The translations under genes were made by a program, and so were the position numbers. Shown in pieces: positions 10,219-14,438 of a stretch of 64,000 bases of DNA. The stretch comes from Chelatococcus asaccharovorans (GTDB taxonomy: Bacteria > Pseudomonadota > Alphaproteobacteria > Rhizobiales > Beijerinckiaceae), in the NCBI RefSeq assembly GCF_003201475.1, contig NZ_QJJK01000011.1:186001-250000 (forward strand). The letters run 5' to 3'. The notes beneath the pieces are model-generated. The model was not told where the DNA came from. It was given only the letters and a program-made list of their open reading frames with translations, and made no database searches. Position 1 is the stretch's first letter. Each line of letters begins with the position of its first letter.

Positions 10219-11559
10219 TCAATGCCGAGGGATCGTAGGAGATCCCGCTGGCGATGCTGCCATGTGCCGTTTGATGCCGTCGCTAATGATTCCGATGGAC
10301 CGGCGCACGATGGCGAAGCCCCATTCGATATCGTCGACCGACACCGCCGGGGCGGCTGGGTTTCGGCTGATGGCGCGAAGGGTGGCGAGGCGAAGTGTGT
10401 TCTCAGCGGCTCGGCCGTTGATATGACGCTCGGTCTCGTCCCAGCGCAAATCATGTTGCCAGGAGAAGACTTCGCCCCACCGCCCGTAAGCCTCTCCGCC
10501 TTCACCTCCCTCGAAGGGGATAACGAATTTGTTGAAGGCGCCGGCTAGGCCGTCCATTCGCGGAAGGCTGTCGATCGCATCCCTGAGAAGATCGACGAGT
10601 AGTTGAGGCGGTCGCGCCCGTCTTCCCAGGGACGGAGGCTTCACGATTGCCGGCGGGCTGGCACTGAAGAAAACGAACCTGTTGATGAACCCATCGGATA
10701 TCGAGGCTTCGGAAAGACCCTCATACAAGGTGCCTGGCGTCGTCATGCCGAGCACGGTCAGGGCAGGTCCTTCGATAGGCGAGTCGTCGCCTTTCGTCTC
10801 GGCCGATGCATATGCACGACCGTCAAACCGACTATTTGCCTGGTCGTAGATCGCCAGCAAAAACTTCCGGATCGATGCGGCCGGCGCTGAACGGTGCCTA
10901 GCATTGATGTCCTGAAGCACAAGCCCAAACTCGTCGAGGACGATGACTGTCGAGGGCCTGCGGCGAAGGATGCGCTCCAGCGCTGCGTAGGACGTAGGGT
11001 CGCCATTCGACACAGCACCGAGCTTGCCGGCGGCGTCACCAAGCTCGCGAGCGGCGCGCGGAGGATGTCCCTTGCCGCCGGCTGTGGCCAGGAGGGTGGT
11101 CATGAACACGTTCACGCCCGCCTCGGTCGGGGCGAGCACCCTATCACCACACAGGCCCGCGAGCAGGGCCAGCGAGGCGGCCAAAGACAGCTCCGGCACC
11201 GGGATGATCGCGGTCGATGTTACCCACGTCGCGACCTCGCCCAGAAGGCCACCAGCGGACTCCGGTGTCCACGGCGCGGGGTGCATCCGCGGGAGCACAG
11301 GCAGGTCTCGCGGCGCGTCGGGGTCGTTGTCGTTTTCAGCGACGGGCAATCCGAGAGCGATGAGGGTCGCCGTACGGAGATCGCCGGAATGGTATCGGGC
11401 TGCACCCTCGGCATAAACATTGAGGTGGCCTTGCGGCGACCAGCGGACGTTGCCTCCCTGTCCCAGCACCTGGGCGCCGATGACAAATGAGCCATGAACC
11501 TGGCCACCGATCCGGCCGGCGATTTCGTCGAGAGAAAGTGGATGAGCGGTCTCCGTCAC
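10219..11559 (-). CDS. DUF3987-like ATPase/primase-helicase-associated protein
   Basis: A 446-residue protein. The GTG start at 11559 overlaps the stop of the upstream gene (GTGA), so it is coupled to it. The core resembles DUF3987 proteins of phage and plasmid replication modules. It has a hydrophobic strand ending in a Walker B (TVIVLDEFGLVLQD), then a LTVLGMTTPGTLYEGL segment, and a 'DGFINRFVFF' sensor-like motif. The expected Walker A position reads LLATAGGKGHPP, without a GKS/T, so nucleotide binding may be altered or lost. DUF3987 proteins usually accompany primases; none is seen here. Confidence 0.65.
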   Translation of the reverse strand: MTETAHPLSLDEIAGRIGGQVHGSFVIGAQVLGQGGNVRWSPQGHLNVYAEGAARYHSGDLRTATLIALGLPVAENDNDPDAPRDLPVLPRMHPAPWTPESAGGLLGEVATWVTSTAIIPVPELSLAASLALLAGLCGDRVLAPTEAGVNVFMTTLLATAGGKGHPPRAARELGDAAGKLGAVSNGDPTSYAALERILRRRPSTVIVLDEFGLVLQDINARHRSAPAASIRKFLLAIYDQANSRFDGRAYASAETKGDDSPIEGPALTVLGMTTPGTLYEGLSEASISDGFINRFVFFSASPPAIVKPPSLGRRARPPQLLVDLLRDAIDSLPRMDGLAGAFNKFVIPFEGGEGGEAYGRWGEVFSWQHDLRWDETERHINGRAAENTLRLATLRAISRNPAAPAVSVDDIEWGFAIVRRSIGIISDGIKRHMAASPAGSPTIPRH

Positions 11560-11822
11560 GCGGCCACCCGCTGCGCACCTGTGATGCGCTCTTGAACCAG
11601 TGTCGCAATCTCGCGGCGCGTTTCCTGGGTGAAAGTCGCGATTGGCTCGGGGTCCCGGTTGCGTCGCGCGGACCACACTAACAATTCACCGTTCCCGGCC
11701 CGCGCGAGGGTCAGATCGCGAAGGCGGATTCCATGGGCGTTGAGGGTGAAGCTCGCGAGCAGCTCAATGCCGCCCTTCGTCAATCGGCTTGGCGTGAAGA
11801 CCGCCAAATTTTCGATACGCAT
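11556..11822 (-). CDS. Hypothetical 88-residue protein, first gene of ATPase operon
   Basis: The start ATG 11822 is preceded by GAAGAG. The sequence (ELLASFTLNAHGIRLRDLTLAR, then NGELLVWSAR) looks like a small beta-rich domain, loosely like SpoVG-type proteins, but the resemblance is weak. It is coupled to the DUF3987-like gene by a GTGA overlap. Function unknown. Confidence 0.6.
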   Translation of the reverse strand: MRIENLAVFTPSRLTKGGIELLASFTLNAHGIRLRDLTLARAGNGELLVWSARRNRDPEPIATFTQETRREIATLVQERITGAQRVAA

Positions 11823-13218: not shown

Positions 13219-13458
13219 ATGAGCAAGTTAATGGGGTTCGCTGTCGCTTTGGGATTGCCTTTGGCTTTGCTAAGCATAGACGCCACGACACGGACGGCTG
13301 AAGCGGCTGTCGTTTATTGTCGGTATATCGGCTACCCGAAAGGCTGTGTGGCTCGTCCCGGCGTTCGACTTTACCCCCGGCCCGCCGCAAGAGCGGTGGC
13401 CGCTCCTAAGCCGACGAATTGGAACGGCGGCGTCAACCGGGTTGGACGACGGCGCTAG
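13219..13458 (+). CDS. Small exported protein
   Basis: A 79-residue protein. The N-terminal signal peptide (MSKLMGFAVALGLPLALLSI ... AEAA) has a probable cleavage near residue 29. The mature part is short, basic and Pro/Ala-rich, with two Cys in CRYIGYPKGC. A GGGAGG ribosome site precedes the start. Similar tiny periplasmic proteins are common in Hyphomicrobiales. Function unknown. Confidence 0.65.
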   Translation: MSKLMGFAVALGLPLALLSIDATTRTAEAAVVYCRYIGYPKGCVARPGVRLYPRPAARAVAAPKPTNWNGGVNRVGRRR

Positions 13459-13700
13459 CGTCTGCGCGTGCAGCGGCTGAGCGGATCCGCGATTGCATGC
13501 AACTCGCCGCTGAAAGCATCATCGAGATCGGCCTCGCCCTGATCCGCCAGAAGCAACGCCTTCCCCACCGGATGTTCCTGCCATGGATCGAGGCGGGGCT
13601 CGGGATGGCGGAGCGATCGGCACGCCGGTTCATGGAGGTGACAACAGCGTTGGGGTCGAAATCGGCCAAGGTGGCCGATTTACCTCCCACCGCCCTCTAG
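13419..13700 (+). pseudogene. DUF3102-like protein fragment
   Basis: The block RIRDCMQLAAESIIEIGLALIRQKQ followed by LPWIEAGLGMAERSARRFMEV is typical of the N-terminal part of DUF3102 proteins of plasmids and phages. Those proteins normally continue well beyond the 'ADLPPTAL' point where this one stops. The only start is a TTG overlapping the previous gene. I therefore read it as a truncated remnant whose 3' part was replaced by the hairpin elements that follow immediately. Confidence 0.6.
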
Positions 13701-13773
13701 TGGTTCGACTCCGACATTTGCATCCGCCTGATACGGGCCTCGGAGCCAATGTCGGAGTCAAGAGAACCACTAG
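13697..13773. repeat. Long imperfect hairpin, element A
   Basis: The outer arm CTAGTGGTTC (13697-13706) pairs with GAACCACTAG (13764-13773). The inner arm GACTCCGACATT (13707-13718) pairs with AATGTCGGAGTC (13748-13759). A four-base AAGA bulge sits on the right side. Twenty-two pairs in all around a 29-base loop that contains CCGCCTGA. Confidence 0.8.
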
Positions 13774-13789
13774 CAAGTTATTGGTTCCA

Positions 13790-13862
13790 GTGGAGCTTTT
13801 GAATTTGACATTTGATCTGGAGCCTGATGTCAGGCGGGATTCACATGTCAAATTCGCTCCAC
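13790..13862. repeat. Long imperfect hairpin, element B (inverted relative of A)
   Basis: The outer arm GTGGAGC (13790-13796) pairs with GCTCCAC (13856-13862). The inner arm GAATTTGACAT (13801-13811) pairs with ATGTCAAATTC (13845-13855). A four-base TTTT bulge sits on the left side. Read in reverse complement it aligns with element A: same bulge position, same arm plan and a shared CCGCCTGA loop. Most stem differences are compensated on the other strand. Confidence 0.75.
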
Positions 13863-14105
13863 GACGCTCTAGCCGCCCCATCAATGCTCGACTCCGTCCG
13901 ATGGAGCCGAGAAGCATGGAAGTTGCGGTGACAAATATAACGCCAAGATCTTTCTATATCGATGCGTTTTATCCGAATATTAGCGAGGCTATTTTTGGAG
14001 CATGGATCGCTGCGGGCATTTGTAAATGCAGCACTCTCGATAGACGCATTTATGGGCATCGCTTTCTGGTAATTGCACGACCATCAAGATTCATTAGTAT
14101 CTACA

Positions 14106-14438
14106 ATGAACGAGAAAGACGAATGTTTCAGGGATCATTACGCTGACAAGTACCCCCTTTATCGAAATCTTCGAGATACCGCATTCGCTATTAAACACGG
14201 CCGCCTCACACGTGGAAAAACACCTAGAAAAGTAAAGGACACCAAACAGATTCTGCGAGCAAAAAAAGTGTTCCTAAACGACTTCTTCGTTGGACAGACG
14301 CTTGGTAGATCGACGTCGCTCATGATTGATGGGAAACAAATTGCAGTAAAGGGAATGCTTGAGGAGGCCCAAAATATGCTTGAGGCCATTCTGAACACAC
14401 TCCCAGAGCGGAAGGGAGATGACCAATCTTCGGATTGA
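14106..14438 (+). CDS. Hypothetical 110-residue protein, AT-rich
   Basis: An open frame in a patch (about 13870-14440) with clearly lower GC than its neighbours. The protein is charged and helical (RNLRDTAFAIKHGRLTRGKTPRK; later VKGMLEEAQNMLEAILNTLPE). The start ATG 14106 is preferred over 14073. An upstream overlapping frame at 13917-14146 (MEVAVTNITPRSFYIDAFYP) may also be coding, giving a two-gene cassette. Neither is recognised. The foreign base use fits a recently acquired cassette. Confidence 0.45.
   Translation: MNEKDECFRDHYADKYPLYRNLRDTAFAIKHGRLTRGKTPRKVKDTKQILRAKKVFLNDFFVGQTLGRSTSLMIDGKQIAVKGMLEEAQNMLEAILNTLPERKGDDQSSD

Follow-up and report, generated by a model that had tools for sequence, protein, structure and literature searches.

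A 166-bp double-hairpin repeat of Chelatococcus asaccharovorans and other Alphaproteobacteria: a probable foldback MITE at CTAG-like sites

Two inverted hairpins at the end of a DUF3102 gene

The window analysed here, a stretch of 64,000 nucleotides from the Chelatococcus asaccharovorans genome, carries two long inverted hairpins (designated A and B) at the end of a gene with a DUF3102 match (Table 1). Both had been described in a sequence-only reading of this DNA and both are present where that reading placed them. Folded in context, hairpin A reaches -46.9 kcal/mol (z -7.7), whilst hairpin B, folded as the minus strand within 13780-13880, reaches -40.2 (z -4.2); none of 200 shuffles folded as well in either case. 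The alignment of A with the reverse complement of B, part of the same reading, is borne out, with 54 of 79 columns identical, as is the common loop, the word CCGCCTGA being found in both. The shared bulge is correct in position and length (4 nt) but not in its letters, which are AAGA in A and TTTT in B. The hairpins themselves are real, but the view of them as two independent elements has to be given up: both belong to a single repeat of 166 bp, of which each makes up one half.

Table 1 Features of the double-hairpin element and of the gene that it interrupts (positions within the window)
Feature	Position	Strand	Remarks
Element proper, probable double-hairpin MITE, GTGG...CCAC	13700-13862	+ (hairpin A first)	Copies, empty sites, end variation
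Left CTAG	13697-13700	.	TA at 13698-13699 read as left copy of duplicated target; G read as element base 1
Right counterpart of target	13862-13865	.	Here CGAC; CTAG in most copies
Hairpin A	13697-13773	+	Outer stem CTAGTGGTTC/GAACCACTAG, inner stem GACTCCGACATTTGC/GCCAATGTCGGAGTC
Bulge of A, AAGA, 4 nt	13760-13763	+	Between inner and outer stem, linker side
Linker CAAGTTATTGGTT, 13 nt	13774-13786	+	Separates hairpins A and B
Hairpin B	13787-13865	- (inverted relative to A)	Inner stem GAATTTGACATTTGA/TCACATGTCAAATTC
Bulge of B, TTTT, 4 nt	13797-13800	+	Linker side
Left outer terminal repeat	13697-13726	+	Consensus of both ends in other species CTAGTGGnnnGAnTnnnACATTnGnnnCC
Right outer terminal repeat	13836-13865	-	Consensus CTAGTGGnnnGAnTnnnACATTnGnnnCC, reversed
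DUF3102 gene cut short by element	13419-13700	+	Matches positions 19-75 of 129 of PF11300

The outward ends of the double-hairpin element share a consensus of 29-30 bp and so form terminal inverted repeats; in 76 copies outside its own genome, the outer arm is followed by CC 73 times on the A side and 71 times on the B side. The same words make up the inward ends, where GTGGnnn is separated from what follows by an insertion of 3-4 nt. At 166 bp the element is too short to encode a transposase, and a family search with the four ORFs at or beside it returned DUF3102 for one and HTH families for another, with nothing for the remaining two.

The stop codon of the DUF3102 ORF is the TAG within the left CTAG of the element, so that the element does interrupt this gene, as had been proposed. 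A wider association with DUF3102 genes does not follow, however: DUF3102 is matched once in the genome, whereas 48 copies of the element were collected, and the link is therefore incidental. Upstream of the truncated gene, at 10219-11676 of the window, lies a DUF3987 gene that is perhaps part of an integrated element.

Copies, distribution and target sites

The earlier reading hinged on the genome holding further copies of the hairpins, and it does. We collected 48 distinct dimers in which hairpin A, linker and hairpin B occur together (array copy C23:47868 is entered twice in this list and its identical neighbour C23:48033 is merged), and 47 of the 48 have a length of exactly 166 bp when the count starts at the C of the left CTAG and stops at the final base of the element. 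Tandem arrays excepted, their flanks differ from copy to copy. A blastn search of the genome gave at least 86 stretches matching A and at least 91 matching B; these are not copy numbers, since both strands of a palindrome match, and 40 of 111 (A) and 40 of 108 (B) first-look candidates were scored. A 24-nt pattern of the A end matched the genome 88 times within three mismatches, one bulgeless copy being counted twice, whilst the reversed control pattern matched nowhere. Two head-to-tail arrays with a period of 165 bp were seen, in which neighbouring units share one CTAG.

Several related or adjoining repeats also came to light. In the own genome a second dimer subfamily, with the inner stem GTTTCCAACATTTGC, is found at L011:1581-1752 and L226:3662-3831, two copies that are about 95% alike, and a hairpin A without its bulge lies at L227:944-1016, where the same end pattern matches both arms. 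One copy is split within hairpin B by an insert of about 1.24 kb (L005:1501 onward). At L015:1345-1419 a lone hairpin, TGTCC...GGACA, ends in CTAG and has unpaired bases in the corresponding position; its sequence is unrelated, and it is perhaps a distant subfamily of the double-hairpin element. Next to copies of the element, and with the CTAG in common, stands a CTAG-bounded repeat of about 205 bp whose ends are CAGGCTGTTGAAAAAC...GTTTTTCAACAGCCTG (L018:1291-1504, and to the right of the element at L051 and L056). In the flanks L006, L018 and L029, palindromes of the AGCATTTTCG... type, which we take to be RIME-like, and of the AGCAAGTCCGTC type end at the CTAG beside the element.

Relatives of the element occur in many Alphaproteobacteria. 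Among the 41 genomes around the window (its own included) three match: its own, designated G000, together with G014 and G017. A pattern scan of a collection of species genomes yielded at least 108 stretches with the element, under titles that name Bradyrhizobium, Nitrobacter, Afipia, Rhodoplanes, Methylocystis, Pleomorphomonas, Mesorhizobium, Phyllobacterium, Pseudaminobacter, Rhizobium, Agrobacterium, Brucella/Ochrobactrum, Sphingomonas, Sphingobium and Novosphingobium, as well as several alphaproteobacterial metagenome-assembled genomes (MAGs) named to family or class level. The scan pattern fixes the inner ACCACTAG and TCTAGTGGA, so that conservation there is partly due to the selection of matches. 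Eighty of the 108 stretches (L112-L191) were used for alignment, pair counts and end statistics and the other 28 for the end scan only. The copies of G017 and of a Methylocystis MAG are nearly identical and may come from one genome. A copy in a record labelled Marinicella sp. W31 (L129), presumably a gammaproteobacterium by that name, resembles a Martelella one, and the label may be wrong. Six plasmid records, all Hyphomicrobiales by name, carry the element at 74-76% identity, as does one viral contig; the phage records searched gave no match.

Clues to the target come from three congeners (G001-G003) that show no match to the element at E 0.001 and therefore supply empty sites for comparison. 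The joined flanks of 21 loci were searched in these genomes, one locus by 69 bases of left flank only. A congener alignment crosses the junction at seven of the 21, firmly at L026, L033, L034 and L042 (about 600 nt). The crossing is weak at L024, where the alignment extends 10 nt beyond it, at L025, whose right flank aligns poorly, and at L049 (short, 77%). Each empty site has one 4-mer where its filled counterpart has two. The single 4-mer is CTAG at L025 and L049, with one congener crossing each; ATAG, ATAG and ATAA at L034; ATAT and GTAT at L024; TCAG twice at L033; TGCG, TGCG and TGTA at L026; and CGAG, TGAG and GAAG at L042. A central TA is thus present in every crossing congener at four of the seven loci (L024, L025, L034 and L049), with other letters at L026, L033 and L042. 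For the insertion in the window itself, flank matches in G001 and G003 fail to bracket the site precisely and none was found in G002.

The element sits in CTAG-like targets. As for how much of the target is duplicated, the filled site at L034 has ATAG as its left 4-mer and CTAG as its right one, which fits a duplication of TA and not one of 4 bp; the first A is accordingly a target base and the right-hand C an element base, a layout that fits [A-TA]-GTGG...CCAC-[TA-G]. Variation at the ends points the same way. Across 123 copies (47 of the 48 from the own genome and 76 from elsewhere, the four own-genome copies among the 80 full dimers of the scan being set aside), the CTA/TAG positions deviate in 28 of 738 cases and the adjoining G/C in 2 of 246 (Fisher p 0.017, no more than a guide given that the copies are related). 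We therefore favour a 2-bp duplication of the central TA and an element that runs from GTGG to CCAC, a reading that draws on one decisive locus, L034, together with the end statistics.

The probable mover and the search for its source

Amongst the options offered by the sequence-only reading, that of a mobile palindrome is strongly supported by the dispersed copies, the empty orthologous sites and the duplication of TA within CTAG. The element has several traits of a MITE: it is short and lacks a transposase, it has terminal inverted repeats, it shows a TA duplication with corresponding empty sites and its many copies are dispersed. The two hairpins are very probably the halves of one 166-bp nonautonomous, MITE-like foldback transposon that is moved by a TA-duplicating DDE transposase. 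On this reading the element inserts at a CTAG-like site with duplication of the central TA, and the terminal inverted repeat of about 30 bp on its outward ends would be recognised in trans by the transposase. Behind each terminal repeat comes its own inverted copy, so that each half folds back on itself; the insertion of 3-4 nt marks the inward ends and would keep them from serving as transposon ends.

Which transposase this might be is suggested by the target. IS711, which we take to belong to the IS427 group of the IS5 family, offers a precedent. In Brucella it duplicates TA within YTAR (PMC2266754, in part). The TA duplication within YTAR or CTAG expected of mobilisation by IS5/IS427 elements is what we find here, and the IS5/IS427 group shares with the double-hairpin element not only this duplication but the presence of CTAG- or CTAC-bounded elements with DUF4096, presumably an IS5-type transposase, in G000 and G017. 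The group differs in being autonomous and about 0.85 kb long, and the repeats of its copies here are unlike those of the double-hairpin element. An IS5/IS427-type enzyme would be the likeliest mover, likelier than an IS630-like one.

Duplication of TA also fits the IS630/Tc1-mariner family, and the element could instead be a MITE of that type, like RUP and the Correia elements. We consider this unlikely. G017, which hosts many copies, has four DDE_3 matches, but no matching terminal repeats surround these genes, and DDE_3 gave no match at all in G000, with its dozens of copies, nor in G014.

The search for a source of the transposase covered three families at whole-genome level (DDE_3, Y1_Tnp and DUF4096). 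DUF4096 has two matches in G000 and five in G017, and at four of these seven (two in each genome) the gene lies between inverted repeats bounded by CTAG or CTAC. These elements of about 0.85 kb (L105, L107, L108 and L109) have CTAG at their borders, apart from CTAC on one side of L105; the two in G000 are bounded by CTAG/CTAC and CTAG/CTAG. As the autonomous partner they were rejected, their terminal repeats all being unlike the ends of the element.

In the loci examined around copies, no autonomous partner bearing the element's ends was found. End-like sites in these loci were paired by distance, up to 4 kb, and 32 plus-strand sites have no partner within 4 kb of the DNA examined. The only spacing above 400 bp, one of 1407 bp (L005, L008 and L045, which are one copy), proved to be an interrupted element with an insert of about 1.24 kb. 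Eleven stretches at orphan or aberrant ends in the own genome were looked at: in ten, hairpin A or hairpin B is complete or almost complete, whilst the eleventh, L231, has half a hairpin A only. At L221 a distance of 2.5 kb separates two dimers; an amidase-like ORF (so named from reading the sequence) lies in this interval, and no transposase was noticed amongst the ORFs listed for the locus.

Arm-to-arm covariation and related repeats

That differences between the stems of A and B are compensated on the partner strand was a claim of the sequence-only reading, and such changes recur on a large scale. Full dimers, defined as having both ends and a length of 150-185 nt, were taken from the scan with copies cut by a contig end left out; 80 were kept, 51 of them non-redundant, and pairs were counted for the structure read off the window's hairpins. 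In these 51 copies, 97.9% of 2526 stem cells are paired, compared with 91.5% in shuffles. Changes on both sides affect 21 of 50 pairs (11.6 in shuffles) and 213 stem cells (67.6 in shuffles). On four of five covariation measures none of 500 shuffles came as high, whilst the fifth, the number of further pair types, is ordinary, being reached by 178 of the 500. Shifting the partner by one base reduces pairing to 35-40%. The claim rests on the inner stems together with columns 9, 10, 104 and 105, weight being placed on the inner stems because the scan pattern fixed some of the inner-end letters.

Parsimony requires at least 58 switches between Watson-Crick pairs on a tree from all columns, or at least 75 on a tree from unpaired columns, and yet only 38 cells at the 21 double-changed pairs are not Watson-Crick. 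The young copies of the own genome present another picture: in 42 distinct copies, uncompensated changes account for 42 G-T, 21 A-C and 64 other mismatches in 2100 cells, which implies no strict maintenance of the structure among copies. A single site gives 16 of the G-T and 10 of the A-C mismatches; counted by site, the figures are 14 and 12.

An RNA was one of the options of the sequence-only reading, and covariation on this scale invites the explanation that the hairpins are a structured RNA, either a small RNA or mRNA-processing hairpins spread in the genome, with selection acting on the folded transcript. The strength of the compensatory changes speaks for it, and other repeat families are transcribed in Sinorhizobium meliloti (PMC2873474, in part). 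If the transcript of one strand were selected, G-U would be tolerated and A-C would not; across species, however, the stems have 25 G-T and 29 A-C mismatches, and these equal counts argue against an RNA product. Intermediates are moreover rare despite the many full pair switches. A search of Rfam returned four matches up to E 5, all of them miRNA models and none anywhere near its gathering score (best E 0.14), and 13400-14200 holds one promoter-like and one weak terminator-like site where 0.5 and 0.6 are expected. Insertion at CTAG-like sites, finally, is the behaviour of a transposon. An RNA origin of the covariation is for these reasons improbable, and the coupling of the arms looks to arise at the level of DNA, there being no RNA-type strand bias.

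How DNA arms might be coupled is suggested by a proposal that template switching during replication makes or mends stems in single steps (PMC8794818, in part). Such switching fits the observation that intermediates are rare. It fits, too, the five of 76 A hairpins outside the own genome in which the bulge has been lost exactly, four of these five being perfect as a result. Against it, none of 47 A loops and none of 47 B loops in the own genome is inverted, although loop inversion is a hallmark of the process. Nor was any true loss of the bulge seen in B, where the sole candidate is a truncated arm. The arms may stay complementary through template-switch repair of quasi-palindromes, through selection on a DNA hairpin, or through both.

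We tentatively raise the further idea of a transposon family spread across the class in which the bulge is a mark of polarity that lets the transposase distinguish outward from inward ends, such that the hairpins always move as a pair and the terminal repeats are kept as exact mirrors. The mirror arms would then be maintained either by template switching in replication or because they are recognised in the form of a folded DNA hairpin. If true, an enzyme that duplicates TA would nevertheless be reading the secondary structure of DNA as its signal for transposition.

Hairpins recognised in single-stranded form are a feature of REP elements, and the sequence-only reading had raised a folded single-strand recombination site as one option. 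Here that would mean a REP/REPIN-like doublet moved by a Y1 transposase (RAYT or IS200/IS605-like). The double-hairpin element shares with REP/REPIN and with the CGTC-tagged repeats of Alphaproteobacteria the dispersed pairs of inverted palindromes, and has unpaired bases in its hairpins and a tetranucleotide at their foot; complementary mutations, too, have been noted in REPs (PMC2817692, in part). REPs and REPINs are shorter, however, and carry a GTAG or CGTC tag, with a RAYT partner for the GTAG repeats. The hairpins of our element measure 77-79 nt rather than 20-40, its ends are CTAG and not GTAG or CGTC (PMC3733652, in part), its target appears duplicated and Y1_Tnp gave no match in G000, G014 or G017 in a search that was positive in five of 14 control genomes. 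We regard a REP-type mechanism as very improbable. A chance hairpin pair or a local duplication without wider meaning can be set aside altogether, given 48 collected copies, relatives across the class and no shuffle in 200 that folds as well.

With the element read as a nonautonomous transposon, its closest parallels are other short mobile repeats. RUP of pneumococcus and the Correia elements of Neisseria duplicate TA. They are likewise short and without a transposase gene, with terminal inverted repeats, many copies, clustering and nested insertion (PMC10969869, in part). What the double-hairpin element has in distinction to them is two fold-back halves, a conserved bulge, arm covariation across the class and a preference for CTAG. 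Nearer at hand, Bru-RS1 and Bru-RS2 of Brucella and the RIME of Rhizobium, the latter 108 bp long, are also palindromic intergenic repeats of Hyphomicrobiales. Bru-RS have been reported as hot spots for an insertion sequence that targets YTAR (PMC2266754, in part), and the copies described are 103 and 106 bp long (PMC10800456, in part) as against 166 bp here.

No description of the double-hairpin element was recognised in the literature searched, the coverage of which is partial, and the element may bear another name. Mobile palindromic repeats are a known kind; a paired fold-back with an inward bulge and class-wide covariation was not met in Rfam or the literature searched.

Taken as a whole, the element provides a large natural data set, drawn from across the Alphaproteobacteria, in which long stems change from one Watson-Crick pair to another, intermediates being few and the strand bias of an RNA absent. 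Covariation of this sort is usually taken as proof of a functional RNA, and its occurrence here in mobile DNA is a warning for RNA-family searches. The element is equally a test bed for the homogenisation of arms at the DNA level, and it explains a repeat that is common in these genomes, the target site of that repeat and the clustering of several palindromic repeats at a shared CTAG.
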